This document shows positions 36,990-42,307 of a DNA stretch of 64,000 nucleotides, piece after piece. The stretch is from Alterileibacterium massiliense (GTDB lineage: Bacteria; Bacillota; Clostridia; Peptostreptococcales; Anaerovoracaceae), in contig NZ_FNWE01000002.1 in NCBI RefSeq assembly GCF_900104645.1, forward strand, positions 62,001 to 126,000. Direction: 5' to 3'. The translations under genes were made by a program, and so were the position numbers. Below the pieces are notes generated by a model that had not been told where the DNA came from, ran no database searches, and saw only the letters and a list, made by a program, of their open reading frames with translations. Positions within the stretch are counted from its first letter, which is position 1. Every line of letters begins with the position of its first letter.

Positions 36990-37817
36990 TTATTTGCTGA
37001 ACTTAGGTATTACCGTTCCCTGATACTTTTCTTCAATAAAGGTTTTTACCTTGTCACTGTGAAGTGCTTTTACTAGAACCTCTATTTTCTTTGCATCTTT
37101 ATCGCCCTTGTTTACCGCAATTATATTGGCATATTTAAGAGCTGCTTCCGAATCGCTTGACTCACCTGCAATTCTATCATCTGCCTTGAGATTTGCTCCG
37201 AGTGCAAAATTGCCATTTATTACACCTAGTGCAACATCAGGAAGAGTTTTAGGAATTATCGCAGCATCTATCTCTTCTATTTCAATATTCTTTGGATTTG
37301 ATACTATATCTTTCTTTGTTGCCTCAAGTCCAGCTCCCTCTTTAAGCTTAATTATTCCATTAGACTCAAGAAGAAGTAATGCTCTTGCTTCATTTGTAGT
37401 GTCATTAGGAACTGCAATCTTATCTCCGCTAGCGAGTTCATCAAAGGACTTTTTCTTTCCCTTGTATACTCCGAGTGATTCAAAATGTTCTAGCCCTGCA
37501 ACTTCGATTTCTGTCTTATTCTTTTTATTGTAATCGATGAGATATGGCTCATGCTGGAAGAAATTCGCGTCGAGGTCCCCGTCAGCGAGTGCCTGATTTG
37601 GTTTTACATAATCTTCAAATTCCTTAATCTCGAGCATATATCCCTCTTTTTCAATTTCCTCCCTAGCTACTTCAAGGATTTCTGCGTGAGGCGTCGGCGA
37701 TGCTCCGACTACTATTTTCTTATCATTTTTTTCAGTCTTTCCGCAACCTGTAAGTGCAAGAGCTCCGATTAGCAAAGCTCCTATTACAACAATTCCAGCT
37801 AAATTTCTCTTTTTCAT
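36990..37817 (-). CDS. metQ: Methionine ABC transporter substrate-binding lipoprotein
   Basis: 275 residues. Signal peptide with lipobox ALTGCGK, then the NlpA/MetQ fold: VGASPTPHAEILEVAREEIEKEGY at the start of the mature domain, FFQHEPYLIDYN, and IPKTLPDVALGVINGNFAL-like segments. It captures methionine or related sulphur compounds outside the cell for MetNI. It is the last gene of metNIQ, 43 bases after metI, with a terminator just beyond. Confidence 0.95.
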   Translation of the reverse strand: MKKRNLAGIVVIGALLIGALALTGCGKTEKNDKKIVVGASPTPHAEILEVAREEIEKEGYMLEIKEFEDYVKPNQALADGDLDANFFQHEPYLIDYNKKNKTEIEVAGLEHFESLGVYKGKKKSFDELASGDKIAVPNDTTNEARALLLLESNGIIKLKEGAGLEATKKDIVSNPKNIEIEEIDAAIIPKTLPDVALGVINGNFALGANLKADDRIAGESSDSEAALKYANIIAVNKGDKDAKKIEVLVKALHSDKVKTFIEEKYQGTVIPKFSK

Positions 37818-37860: not shown

Positions 37861-38505
37861 TTAAATTCTATTGTCCAATTTTTTTGAGATATAATTTCCT
37901 ATCGACTGCAAGAGCTGAACTAGCAAAATCAATATGACTACAGTTATCCACATTGTCTTTGAATCGTACCTATATAAGCCATATTTGATAGCTATATCGC
38001 CTAGTCCCCCGCCACCTACGACACCTGCCATCGCCGAATAGCCGAGAATGGTGATTGTAGATACCGCTGTTCCTATTAATAGCGACGGCCTTGCTTCTAG
38101 CAACATCACCTTGATTACTATCTGCATATTGCTCGCTCCCATTGACTGTGCAGCCTCGATTACGCCCTTATCCACTTCTCTCAGCTCCGATTCCACAAGC
38201 CTTGCGACGAACGGCACTGCTGAGGCAACGAGCACAGCTACAGTCGCCGAAGTTCCTATTCCCGTTCCTATTATTATTCTCACATAAGGCATTAGTGCTA
38301 TCATGAGAATTAGGAATGGAACCGACCTTACTATATTTACAATAAAGCCCATAACCTTGTTATATGTATGGTGCGGGCTTATGCCGTCTGGTGCGGTTAC
38401 TACCAGAGAAACGCCTATCGGAAGTCCGAAAAGATATGCTATCGCCGTCGCTCCAACTGTCATATAAAGCGTATCGAGTATCCCTTGAATTAGCATCTGT
38501 CCCAT
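37861..38505 (-). CDS. metI: Methionine ABC transporter permease
   Basis: 214 residues with five membrane helices. The permease coupling loop is EAAQSMGASNMQIVIKVMLLEARP, and SAMAGVVGGGGLGDIAIKYG is typical of MetI. It shares its first base(s) with the end of metN, so the two are translationally coupled. Confidence 0.95.
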   Translation of the reverse strand: MGQMLIQGILDTLYMTVGATAIAYLFGLPIGVSLVVTAPDGISPHHTYNKVMGFIVNIVRSVPFLILMIALMPYVRIIIGTGIGTSATVAVLVASAVPFVARLVESELREVDKGVIEAAQSMGASNMQIVIKVMLLEARPSLLIGTAVSTITILGYSAMAGVVGGGGLGDIAIKYGLYRYDSKTMWITVVILILLVQLLQSIGNYISKKLDNRI

Positions 38506-39587
38506 TATCTTCCCTCCTTTCCATACATATTTCTATCCTCATCTTCTTCCAAATCATTCGATTCTAAAGAGTTCGCTTCTCCCTCTTCAAGTTCTATAAA
38601 TGTGACCTTATTTTCCCTGAGATATTCTTTCTGCTTTCTTGCAATCTCTTCATCTTCTGAAAGCCCTATAACCATCTGACCTTTTTGATTTTCTCCAACG
38701 CTCTCCATCCTCGCATATAAGATGTTAACAGGGGCCTTTAACTCTATAATCATATTCGCAATTACCGGCTCATAGGCTCTATTGTCATCAAATGCCAACC
38801 TAACTCGATTCTTCACCGATGTTCTCATATGTAAATCCGGCTCGTCTTCTTTTTGGAAAAATAGCCTTCTTCCGGCAGCTGACTTTGGCTTTTTAAAAAC
38901 AGCTTCTACAGTTCCCGTCTCCGCAATTTCTCCTTTTTCTATTATTGCGACCTTATTGCAAATCTGCCTAACAACTTCCATCTCATGCGTTATAACTATT
39001 ATAGTTATTTTATAATCTCTATTTATCTTTTTTAAAAGCCTTAGAATCGACTTCGTTGTATCTGGGTCAAGTGCCGATGTCGCCTCATCGCAGAGAAGAA
39101 CTTTTGGATTTGTTGAAAGTGCTCTCGCTATTGCAACTCTTTGTTTCTGCCCGCCGGAGAGCTGTGATGGATAGGAGTAAATTCTGTCCTCAAGGTCTAC
39201 CAGCTTTAATAATTCTTTTGCTTTTTCCTCTGCATTTTTCTTTGAAATGCCTGCTATTTCAAGCGGAAATGAAACATTCCTTAGAACATTTTTCTGCATA
39301 AGCAGGTTAAACTGCTGAAAAATCATGGCTATATTTCTTCTCTTTTTATTAAGCTCTTTCTTGTTCCTATCCGTTAACTCCTCTCCATCAAATACGACCT
39401 TTCCCTCAGTCGGTATCTCAAGCAAGTTCATACATCTTACAAGGGTGCTTTTGCCTGCTCCAGACAATCCTATAATTCCATAAATATCTCCCTCTTCAAT
39501 TTCTAGGTTAATGTCAGTTATTGCGTTGACCTTTCCCGCTCTTGTATTAAATTCCTTGCTAACGCCCTTTAACGAAATAATGCTCAA
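38505..39587 (-). CDS. metN: Methionine ABC transporter ATPase
   Basis: 360 residues. Walker A GLSGAGKST, signature LSGGQKQRVAIARAL, Walker B VLLCDEATSALDP, and a C-terminal NIL regulatory domain (about 265-345, binding methionine for feedback inhibition of transport). The start is TTG with AGGAGGAG 5 bases upstream. It is first in the operon and lies behind a leader region of about 425 bases with a Met-rich peptide and a terminator. The MetN family identity is firm. Confidence 0.95.
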   Translation of the reverse strand: MSIISLKGVSKEFNTRAGKVNAITDINLEIEEGDIYGIIGLSGAGKSTLVRCMNLLEIPTEGKVVFDGEELTDRNKKELNKKRRNIAMIFQQFNLLMQKNVLRNVSFPLEIAGISKKNAEEKAKELLKLVDLEDRIYSYPSQLSGGQKQRVAIARALSTNPKVLLCDEATSALDPDTTKSILRLLKKINRDYKITIIVITHEMEVVRQICNKVAIIEKGEIAETGTVEAVFKKPKSAAGRRLFFQKEDEPDLHMRTSVKNRVRLAFDDNRAYEPVIANMIIELKAPVNILYARMESVGENQKGQMVIGLSEDEEIARKQKEYLRENKVTFIELEEGEANSLESNDLEEDEDRNMYGKEGR

Positions 39588-39769
39588 TGTTCTCCTCCTA
39601 ATTGCAAATTATATGTTATTTATTTTGACTTCCCTTGCTTACTAAATTGTATTAAATATTTTGATTGGATATTTATATTTCGTTTTTGCTTTTATAATCT
39701 CTTATAATCTCTCATAATTCTTGTTCATAAGCCATTTTTGAAGTCATGCTCGATATGCCTTTATTAAAA

Positions 39770-39798
39770 TAAAAAAGCGGGTCTCTAACGACCCGCTT
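39770..39798 (-). terminator. Leader terminator (attenuator) before metNIQ
   Basis: AAGCGGGTC and GACCCGCTT form a perfect 9-bp stem with a 6-base loop, followed on the minus strand by TTTTTTATTTT. It lies between the Met-rich leader peptide and metN, so most transcripts should stop here unless the hairpin is prevented. Confidence 0.88.
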
Positions 39799-39876
39799 CA
39801 CATTTCTCTTACCATGCTATAAGCATAACACGATAATTTAATAGCTATTATCCACAGATTCTGTTAGATTAATTAC

Positions 39877-39960
39877 CTATTTAAGTTGGCGGCTGCTCAT
39901 GCACATACCCATCATATTCATTTCCATCATCTCGATGTTGATATTATATTTATTTAGCAT
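39877..39960 (-). CDS. Methionine-rich leader peptide of metNIQ
   Basis: A 27-codon frame, MLNKYNINIEMMEMNMMGMC then MSSRQLK, with 8 Met residues; 7 of codons 11-21 are Met. A strong AAAGGAGG site lies 9 bases before the ATG. It sits 52 bases after a predicted start of transcription and ends about 80 bases before the attenuator hairpin. By analogy with trp and his leader peptides, ribosome stalling when charged tRNA-Met is scarce would favour read-through into metNIQ. I saw no S-box or T-box in this leader. Confidence 0.8.
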   Translation of the reverse strand: MLNKYNINIEMMEMNMMGMCMSSRQLK

Positions 39961-40018
39961 GATAGCCTGCCTCCTTTCTTTGTAACTAATCTCTTTGTTT
40001 TAATTATCCTGTATGTGA

Positions 40019-40047
40019 AATATACCAATCTTTTTCATCTATGTCAA
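40019..40047 (-). promoter_or_regulatory. Promoter of the metNIQ leader
   Basis: TTGACA (40042-40047) and TATATT (40019-40024) on the minus strand with a 17-base spacer. The predicted start near 40012 precedes the Met-rich leader peptide. Confidence 0.82.
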
Positions 40048-40127
40048 TATGTTTTTGTAATTTTTTACAATATTTTTATTTATTTCTATTTGCTATAATA
40101 TATGAGTGTAATTTCAAGCATAGACTT

Positions 40128-40203
40128 GCACCGGTAGCTCAGGGGATAGAGTAGCACACTCCGAATGTGTTGGTCGTGAGTTCAAATCTCACTCGGTGCA
40201 CCA
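40128..40203 (+). tRNA. tRNA-Arg (anticodon CCG)
   Basis: A full 76-base cloverleaf: acceptor stem GCACCGG/TCGGTGC, D arm GCTC/GAGT, anticodon stem GCACA/TGTGT with loop CTCCGAA (anticodon CCG), T arm GTGAG/CTCAC with loop TTCAAAT, discriminator A, and an encoded CCA. An extended -10 (TGCTATAAT, 40091-40099) lies upstream. The EamA gene starts 28 bases after it and may share the transcript. Confidence 0.96.
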
Positions 40204-40231
40204 CTAATTTTAAGCTTCTTGGAGGTAGTTA

Positions 40232-41146
40232 ATGATCAAAGAAATAATAAATGGAGAAAAGACCCTTTCGGTTACAGCATCAGACCTGCTATTTGCACTT
40301 GCGATTGTCGTAAGATCCTCAGCTCTATTGTTCAGTTCGATAGCTATGAGAGGCCTTGAACCATTTAATATTCTTGCAGTAAGATTTCTTCTCGCCTTTG
40401 CCATACTTCTTATATTGTTTAGAAAACGCTTCCTGAATATAAATAAGAAAACTTTTTACCGCGGGCTTGCAGTCGGTCTTTCATTTTTCTCCTGCATGGC
40501 TTTTGAAATGTTTGCTCTTAAATACTCTCCATCATCAAAGGTTGCTTTTCTTGAAAATTTGGCGATGGTTTTTGTTCCTCTTATCGATGCTTTTTTGCTA
40601 AGATGTCTGCCAAAGGCTTCTGCCATACTAAGTGCAATCGTCGCTCTCTTTGGCGTTGCTCTTTTAACATTGGGTGAAAGCGGGCAGATGACTTTATCAA
40701 AGGGTGAAATACTTGCAATTCTTGCAGCCTTTGGTTTTGCAGTAACAATTATAATCACAGACCGAGTATCAAAGAATGGCGATAGTTTTATGATAGGTGT
40801 AATTCAGGTTGGCGTTATAGGTTTTGCAAGCTTAGCCTGCTCGCTAATATTTGAGTCCTCTAAGCTTCCTTCTTCAGGCAGCCAGTGGGGTGCGATTATC
40901 TATCTTGCTATAGTTGCGACCTGCGTAGGTTTCGTTATACAGCCCGTTGCTCAGAGTGGCACAACTTCTTCTCATACAGGCTTAATATCTTCATTAAATC
41001 CTGTGGTTGCGGCCCTGCTCGGTGCAATCTTCCTTGGGGAAAGATTTGGAACAAAGGGTATAATTGGGGCTTTTCTCATTCTATTTGCAATTTTAATGCA
41101 GAATTATCTTGAAAAAATTTCTCTAAAAAAATCATTATCTAAATAA
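40232..41146 (+). CDS. EamA/DMT-family transporter
   Basis: 304 residues with about ten membrane helices in two EamA repeats. The second repeat ends with SSLNPVVAALLGAIFLGERF, the usual helix-9 motif. DMT-family proteins export or import amino acids, nucleotides or other metabolites; the substrate cannot be told here. TTGGAGG precedes the start. It lies right after tRNA-Arg. Confidence 0.92.
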   Translation: MIKEIINGEKTLSVTASDLLFALAIVVRSSALLFSSIAMRGLEPFNILAVRFLLAFAILLILFRKRFLNINKKTFYRGLAVGLSFFSCMAFEMFALKYSPSSKVAFLENLAMVFVPLIDAFLLRCLPKASAILSAIVALFGVALLTLGESGQMTLSKGEILAILAAFGFAVTIIITDRVSKNGDSFMIGVIQVGVIGFASLACSLIFESSKLPSSGSQWGAIIYLAIVATCVGFVIQPVAQSGTTSSHTGLISSLNPVVAALLGAIFLGERFGTKGIIGAFLILFAILMQNYLEKISLKKSLSK

Positions 41147-41329: not shown

Positions 41330-42307
41330 TTAATCGGCATTAGTTCTTTTTTTCTTTTTAATTGGCACTTGAGCGAAGGCTGTAGCAATGAATATTATCG
41401 CACAACCTAGCAATTCTCTATTTGTCATATGCTCGCCTAGGAGCAATACTCCGAAAATCATTGAAAATATAGCCTCGGTACTCATTATGAGTGAAGCGAT
41501 TGTCGGGTTTGTCCTCTTTTGACCGATTATTTGCAATGTAAAGCAGAGTGCTCCAGGAAATAGTGCTGAATACATCAGCGGTTTTATTCCATTAAAAATC
41601 TGAATTAGCGACGGATTTTCTGTAAAAATAGAAACTGCTATATTCGTTACCCCGCAGATAAACATCTGAATCATAGAAAGTAACAAGGGGTTCGTCCTAG
41701 GTGAATATATCCCGACCGCATTTATCTGTATTGCGAAAAAGAGTGCACTAAGGACTATGATTAAATCACCCAGCGATACTCCACCCGCGTCCTTGTTTAG
41801 ACTTAATAGTGCAAATCCTATAAGTGCAACAATTACGCAGACCCAGAGTTTTAAATCGACCTTTCTTCCAAGTACAATTCCAATGACCGGAACTAGAATT
41901 ACATATAGAGTGGTTAAAAATCCTGCTTTACCAACCGATACCATGTTTATTCCAATTTGCTGAACTCCCGCTCCAACCGCTGTAAAAAGTCCGCAGATAA
42001 TTCCACCGATTAAAATATCTCTTCTTCTTTTCTTGATAATTCTTCCCGCTTCGTCCTCAATATTCCCATTGAATGAATTATCTATAGCTAAAACCGCCAT
42101 AGTCCTTTCTCTTGAATAAAATCCCGAGCGAGCTGAGCTGATAAGTGCAGCGGGGAGAAGAACCATTGAAGCTATGAACATTCTGCTTCCATTAAAAAGC
42201 AGAGGTCCCATATGCACCATTCCAAGCTTTTGTGCAATCAAACCAGATCCCCATACACAGGCGGTTATTAGAAGGCATATTGTTCCACGCAGATTATTTT
42301 CTTTCAT
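41330..42307 (-). CDS. EamA/DMT-family transporter
   Basis: 325 residues, ten membrane helices in two EamA repeats with a longer cytoplasmic loop in the first half (residues about 62-90, rich in charged residues). IASLIMSTEAIFSMIFGVLLLGE is the helix-9 motif of the second repeat. It resembles the neighbouring plus-strand transporter only at family level. Substrate unknown. Confidence 0.92.
   Translation of the reverse strand: MKENNLRGTICLLITACVWGSGLIAQKLGMVHMGPLLFNGSRMFIASMVLLPAALISSARSGFYSRERTMAVLAIDNSFNGNIEDEAGRIIKKRRRDILIGGIICGLFTAVGAGVQQIGINMVSVGKAGFLTTLYVILVPVIGIVLGRKVDLKLWVCVIVALIGFALLSLNKDAGGVSLGDLIIVLSALFFAIQINAVGIYSPRTNPLLLSMIQMFICGVTNIAVSIFTENPSLIQIFNGIKPLMYSALFPGALCFTLQIIGQKRTNPTIASLIMSTEAIFSMIFGVLLLGEHMTNRELLGCAIIFIATAFAQVPIKKKKRTNAD

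Follow-up and report, generated by a model that had tools for sequence, protein, structure and literature searches.

A Met-codon leader open reading frame upstream of metNIQ in Alterileibacterium massiliense and its relatives: a putative leader-peptide attenuator of a methionine transporter operon

Organization of the metNIQ locus

The window, a stretch of 64,000 nucleotides of the Alterileibacterium massiliense genome, carries on its minus strand the three genes of a methionine transporter: metN for the ATP-binding protein (38505-39587, with a TTG start at 39587), metI for the permease (37861-38505) and metQ for the substrate-binding lipoprotein (36990-37817). In NCBIfam they match MetN, MetI and MetQ best, none of them reaching the full-protein cut-off. 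Upstream of metN, on the same strand, a promoter is followed by a strong ribosome-binding site, an open reading frame (ORF) of 27 codons and an intrinsic terminator. The promoter at 40047-40019 (TTGACA-17-TATATT, with an extended -10 TG) scores 11 of 12 matches; the region shows no overall enrichment of promoter-like sites (6 against 4.7 expected), of which this one is the best. The ribosome-binding site AAAGGAGG can be read directly at 39977-39970, 9 nt 5' of the ATG. The ORF MLNKYNINIEMMEMNMMGMCMSSRQLK occupies 39960-39880, with a TAG stop at 39879-39877, and contains eight Met codons (1, 11, 12, 14, 16, 17, 19 and 21), seven of them within codons 11-21. The terminator GAAGCGGGTCGTTAGAGACCCGCTTT (39799-39774), a 10-pair stem followed by a T-run, is the sole terminator-like site in 39500-40300, where 0.3 would be expected. 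The near-perfect promoter boxes, the strong ribosome-binding site, the Met-rich peptide and the terminator before metN, all described by a first-pass annotation, are thus each found in place.

Several folded elements are predicted on this strand around the end of the ORF. Hairpin P1 is formed by AATAG (39877-39881), which overlaps the stop codon, and its partner CTATT (39840-39844). Strand X, ATCTAACAGAATCTGTG (39853-39869), lies after the stop codon and is the proposed antiterminator strand; in the window leader it could pair with AGCGGGTCGTTAGAG of the terminator at -11.2 kcal/mol. Between X and the terminator, a stable hairpin TTATCGTGTTAT..ATAGCATGGTAA is predicted at 39809-39836. Elsewhere in the genome, a second match to the leader region (74% over query 111-183) falls outside the ORF and the terminator. 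Divergent from the leader promoter is a tRNA-Arg gene with anticodon CCG (40128-40203, plus strand), followed by two converging genes for exporter-like proteins with multiple membrane spans (40232-41146, plus strand, and 41330-42307, minus strand), the former with TIGR00950 as its best NCBIfam match, below the cut-off.

The Met density of the leader was compared with that of all ORFs of 10-60 codons on both strands of the window, one per stop (1,394 in total). Only the leader reaches 7 Met in 11 codons, the runner-up having 5; in 12 dinucleotide shuffles of the window, which yielded 22,993 ORFs, the maximum was 5 Met in 11 codons, reached twice. The leader is a real feature, beyond chance.

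Riboswitches and methionine physiology

Methionine control in Clostridia is normally credited to riboswitches that bind SAM or tRNA. Such S-box and T-box RNAs resemble the proposed leader in acting on methionine genes of Firmicutes by transcription attenuation, but neither was matched in the window leader, where no Rfam family, RF00162 and RF00230 included, reached its gathering score. A search of the surrounding locus against Rfam at E<=1 yielded nothing further except one match below threshold, antisense to the adjacent tRNA gene. The genome as assembled (1.45 Mb in two contigs, about 89% complete) has one S-box (RF00162), upstream of metK, and no T-box (RF00230) match; 5 of 14 control genomes had such a match. 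In other families of the order, four genomes (L019, L020, L022, L023) have an S-box near metN. The genome also lacks matches to TIGR01326 (O-acetylhomoserine sulfhydrylase), PF01717 (MetE C-terminal domain) and PF02574 (homocysteine S-methyltransferase). The source bacterium is probably a methionine auxotroph fed by MetNIQ, an inference that is limited by the incomplete genome.

Conservation of the leader within the family

MetN matches at E<=1e-85 occur in 113 of the 349 genomes of the same GTDB family, at 115 places. Of these places 106 were examined, 103 through up to 800 nt upstream of metN and three through longer stretches. A Met-rich in-frame leader, intact or cut by a contig end, is observed at 79 of the 106 places and in 17 genera, whereas non-conservation in relatives would have refuted the initial proposal. 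At 67 places of the family the leader stands directly before metN; these, together with G048 from another family, make up the set of 68 metN-adjoining leaders used below. At 12 places, including G186 and G214 (the latter cut by a contig end), it stands before metQ in operons where metQ comes first. Similarity to MetQ just downstream was confirmed by tblastn at 10 of these 12 places; in G027 and G003 the downstream MetQ was identified by reading its residues. The leader hence stays with the methionine transporter operon despite changes in gene order.

No Met-rich leader was seen at 26 of the 106 examined places, one of which has only 72 nt of upstream sequence; at several leaderless places with metQ in between, the scanned sequence before metN extended to as much as about 1,900 nt. 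The second metN copy of G329 (L042, L199), with 145 nt available before a contig end, retains a leader remnant with a broken frame, and the leader of the other copy (L064) is intact. Three further variants were noticed. Before metQ in G016 (L156), which is among the 26 places, there is in the position of the relatives' Met-rich leader a Cys-rich one, MKKFLNSAEAVRMCGCCCMCMESDCSS, with a strong ribosome-binding site, possibly a change of the sensed amino acid. At L053 (G342), a second, shorter Met-rich ORF MMMELRMMDMCMCAPK lies 82 nt before metN and shares its ending with the leader MTKKNMMMEMGMMGMCMCAPK; it may be a duplicated leader. A second copy of the g88-type leader stands at the end of contig 73 of G214 (L232, L152), with no downstream sequence.

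The nearest genus has the leader consensus MMMEMGMMGMCMC. Other genera keep the density of Met, usually together with Cys, and not the order of residues, as in MMMDMMMCMGAMCM, MMMDMCMAMPMR and MMMPMHMVMAMC. This distribution bears on whether the leader could be an arrest peptide, that is, whether its nascent Met-rich chain would stall the ribosome on a ligand such as free methionine or SAM, instead of the codons awaiting Met-tRNA. Such a peptide would be compatible with the nearest genus, which also keeps the residues between the Met, but between genera only the Met density is kept, often with Cys, which argues against it.

Leaders before other methionine genes

Pattern searches extended the survey beyond metN. 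Of 393 genomes of the order, 30 match a DNA pattern for MGMCMC, every one belonging to the leader's own family, and none matches the reversed control pattern; 29 of the 30 loci are leaders already found before metN or metQ and one lies at a contig end. The pattern MMGM[CR]M was matched in five of 391 genomes of the class (control, 0): one is the window's genome, two have a leader before a gene for O-acetylhomoserine sulfhydrylase, and two have longer coding frames. The two leaders (L302, L303) are of 43 residues and are followed by a terminator before the metY-type gene, which at L302 matches TIGR01326 with 595 bits, above the cut-off. The two longer frames, one Met-rich and of 137 codons (L299) and one permease-like (L300), were set aside.

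A pattern scan of species genomes matched at least 118 stretches; among the 80 matches listed, 29 were read as leaders, of which one has a broken frame and several run into a contig end. When 14 of the 29 were examined by tblastn, 13 were found to adjoin metNIQ genes and one (L204) to precede metG, the gene for methionine--tRNA ligase (NF008900, 916 bits). The metNIQ-linked leaders include those of Candidatus Coliplasma caballi and Candidatus Onthovicinus excrementipullorum, assigned by the NCBI taxonomy to Eubacteriales incertae sedis and Oscillospiraceae, respectively. No Met-rich leader was seen upstream of metG in the window's own genome. The leader before metG at L204 (3100-3365) has no clear ribosome-binding site; since a -10-like CATAAT stands directly before its ATG, translation from a nearly leaderless transcript is possible.

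Other matches of the scan were not counted as leaders. Many come from Bacteroidales, where MMGMCMRGLFFTSPISVQSASPVYI is shared by frames that differ in length and mostly lack a ribosome-binding site; we tentatively read these frames as the antisense of a conserved gene. Four more (L211, L230, L242, L249) consist of a short frame with an RBS-like motif.

Peptides rich in Met and Cys resemble metal-binding motifs, and this counts for the possibility of a small Met/Cys-rich protein, for example a metal-binding one, whose ORF is merely co-transcribed with the transporter, the terminator setting a constant low read-through. Against it, the ORF follows the methionine transporter through gene-order changes and is found also before metG and a metY-type gene, its residue spacing is not fixed, and the RNA after the Met run fits the terminator, as described in the next section. 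We consider this explanation hardly credible.

Terminators and alternative pairing

A terminator-like hairpin follows 67 of the 68 leaders adjoining metN, compared to 34 of 680 shuffled spacers. Under this lenient criterion it also follows all 20 further leaders, here without a shuffle control. In the nearest genus, the alignment comprised 40 of the 45 extracted fragments, L037, L049, L052, L076 and L080 being left out. The covariation of the terminator stem was not equalled in any of 500 shuffles. The terminator loop and 3' arm contain TCGTTA-GACC, with which a strand after the ORF, GGTC-TAACGA, pairs; 90.4% of cells are paired, against at most 52.8% for slid versions. As a check of alternative pairing in relatives, this result is mixed: the pairing is kept within the nearest genus, but its covariation score in the 40-fragment alignment is no higher than that of shuffles (238/500). 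Hairpin P1 (CATAG:CTATG in this genus) encloses the antiterminator strand and is paired in 99.5% of cells against at most 55% for slid versions, with no change on both sides. The window counterparts of these elements are ATCTAACAGAATCTGTG, AGCGGGTCGTTAGAG of the terminator and the P1 arms AATAG:CTATT. In several metQ-first genera, the pairing strand is found inside the 3' part of the ORF, for instance AAAGTCAGATACTTTCC with GGAAAGTTGTTTGACTTT, where none of 200 shuffles was as good.

Leader by leader, the pairing ranks within the best 5% relative to shuffles in 18 of 44 leaders of the nearest genus and in 12 of 43 others. The comparison of own with foreign combinations covered 26 lineages, with up to six members each, which are not phylogenetically independent. 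The mean energy was -16.7 kcal/mol for own pairings, as compared with -13.7 when the terminator was foreign (one-sided Wilcoxon p 1.2e-4) and -13.6 when the upstream region was (p 4.1e-5). Seven lineages are clear in both directions, no more than 2 of 25 foreign combinations being as strong. The window lineage is not among the supportive ones, foreign combinations being as strong in 12/25 and 19/25 cases, and seven lineages besides it lack clear support in this test. The pairing of the window's own X with its terminator is no better than in shuffles, 72 of 200 being as good, or 116 of 200 with a wider region. Pairing of the RNA after the Met run with the terminator, as a putative antiterminator, is accordingly a feature supported across the 26 lineages and not for the window leader alone.

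The first-pass annotation had pointed to a different and admittedly weak antiterminator, CCGC:GCGG. These letters are present, but relatives support the strand after the stop codon (39869-39853) instead: CCGC:GCGG amounts to four pairs that cannot be nested with those of X, relatives do not keep it, and it was rejected as the main antiterminator.

Position of the ribosome and the proposed mechanism

Of the 12 leaders outside the nearest genus with the best support, 11 have a pairing strand that begins 15-23 nt downstream of their last Met codon and one has it at 2 nt, while its position relative to the stop codon varies from -45 to -18. For the nearest genus the median distances are 24 nt from the last Met and +11 from the stop, and for the window leader the values are 28 nt and +10. 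A ribosome at the last Met codon leaves the pairing strand free in nearly all leaders. A ribosome at the stop covers from 0 to 100% of the strand across leaders, including 15% of the X pairs in the window leader and none in six others, and a general rule that the ribosome at the stop masks X was abandoned because of this variation.

The fairly steady distance from the last Met codon to the pairing strand, like the presence of a similar leader before a Met-tRNA ligase gene, speaks for codons being read and not for an arrest peptide, which we regard as unlikely. We favour the reading of the metNIQ leader as a transcription attenuator of the trp type, sensing methionine via the charging of Met-tRNA; in the absence of expression data we consider this very probable. 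The sequences themselves show the ORF and its conservation, the terminator, the tie to methionine genes and, for several lineages, the alternative pairing shortly after the Met run. Translation of the ORF is itself an inference, as are the stalling on its Met codons, the part played by P1 and the direction in which the system responds. When charged Met-tRNA is ample, the ribosome would cross the AUG-rich ORF and then cover X or leave it to P1; with X covered, the terminator would form and metNIQ would be off. When methionine is short, the ribosome would stall within the Met run, too far upstream to cover X, so X would be free to pair with the emerging loop and arms of the terminator. This pairing would pre-empt the terminator and metNIQ would be transcribed. 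A ribosome at the Met run that leaves the strand free, and one further on that covers it for a time, would together provide the logic of trp-type attenuation. Since the same arrangement is found in many related bacteria, methionine supply is most likely gauged by the ease of translating the leader ORF.

Modelled folding agrees with part of this scheme. With the window RNA made up to the loop, the modelled antiterminator probability is 0.01 without a ribosome, 0.18 with a ribosome at the first internal Met, 0.74 at the last Met and 0.70 at the stop. With four nucleotides more it is at most 0.13 at every ribosome position, P1 and the starting terminator winning. The corresponding means for 44 leaders of the nearest genus are 0.19 without a ribosome, 0.46 at the last Met and 0.70 at the stop for RNA up to the loop, and 0.52, 0.80 and 0.75, respectively, for the loop plus four. 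The finished terminator wins at equilibrium in nearly every modelled case. Since a ribosome at the stop codon leaves the antiterminator likely in these models, the off-state must, by inference, hinge on timing, on X being covered or on P1.

The modelled antiterminator of the nearest genus depends more on the presence of any ribosome than on the Met codon that it occupies. This would suit a real terminator and leader ORF that respond to the general rate of translation, or to some other signal, and not to methionine. Against this stand the composition of the leaders, Met making up 31% of the residues in 87 of them (746/2395), and the identified downstream genes, which serve methionine; a response of this kind seems to us very unlikely. 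The originally proposed Met-codon leader-peptide attenuator for metNIQ has thus gained support from comparison, not from experiment, through the leaders at 79/106 places, the terminators after 67/68 metN-adjoining leaders, the pairing across 26 lineages and the leaders before metG and a metY-type gene.

Relation to known systems

The arrangement resembles the trp- and his-type attenuators of Proteobacteria and the his leaders of bacilli in having a short ORF rich in codons of the amino acid concerned, a terminator between ORF and operon, and a proposed alternative pairing of the RNA just after the regulatory codons. It differs from them in that the amino acid is Met, whose sole codon is also the initiation codon, that the ORFs are rich in Cys as well, and that the position of the pairing strand varies by genus, within the ORF or beyond its stop codon. 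AUG being both the only Met codon and the initiation codon, Met is an odd amino acid to read by attenuation, and codon-replacement tests would be unusually clean.

Leader peptides as such are not foreign to Firmicutes: histidine leaders occur in bacilli (PMC2965389) and a Leu-rich leader is mentioned in S. aureus (PMC13009471), so the mechanism exists in this phylum. A close likeness is the metL leader predicted before metNIQ of Streptomyces lividans, a peptide with Met and Cys for which termination is unclear (PMC8079986). According to its authors, metL has no typical Rho-independent terminator; it has 3 Met in 29 residues and a leaderless start, whereas the leader described here has 8 in 27, a ribosome-binding site and a terminator. 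The likeness drawn here is one of arrangement. Leader ORFs with Cys codons before actinobacterial cys operons likewise read a sulphur amino acid, but their Cys runs are near the stop and no conserved terminator hairpin is reported (PMC1262725), in contrast to the Met runs and terminators found here. The same 2005 survey gives no conserved RNA structure for methionine operons in Actinobacteria. The arrangement had been called unusual and apparently undescribed for this operon. That holds insofar as no description of a Met-codon leader in Firmicutes was recognised in the literature searched, which was covered only partly; it must be qualified by the predicted metL before the same operon and by the leader peptides known elsewhere in Firmicutes.

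If the proposed reading is true, ribosome-mediated methionine attenuation would be a conserved system in Clostridia, and a single genome would keep two signals separate, SAM through the metK S-box and charged Met-tRNA through the metNIQ leader. The recurrent short Met-rich ORFs of gut and rumen bacteria would also gain a probable function. More tentatively, and with considerable doubt, these leaders may represent an unnamed, widespread class in Clostridia, whose AUG- and UGY-rich ORFs would read the charging of Met-tRNA and Cys-tRNA together and control uptake (metNIQ), synthesis (metY) and tRNA charging (metG), sharing the labour with the SAM riboswitch of metK. As methionine starvation also lowers initiator tRNA, such a Met and Cys switch would need to respond to stalls in elongation while initiation still works.

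MetQ of the metQ-first operons

In the metQ-first operons (L151, at 1390-2244, and L170, L171, L172, L198, L222, L234 and L252), the blocks of MetQ similarity appear in swapped order. Compared to the MetQ of the window, residues from about 133 come first and residues of about 34-130 come after. From this order of blocks, the MetQ of the metQ-first operons looks circularly permuted.
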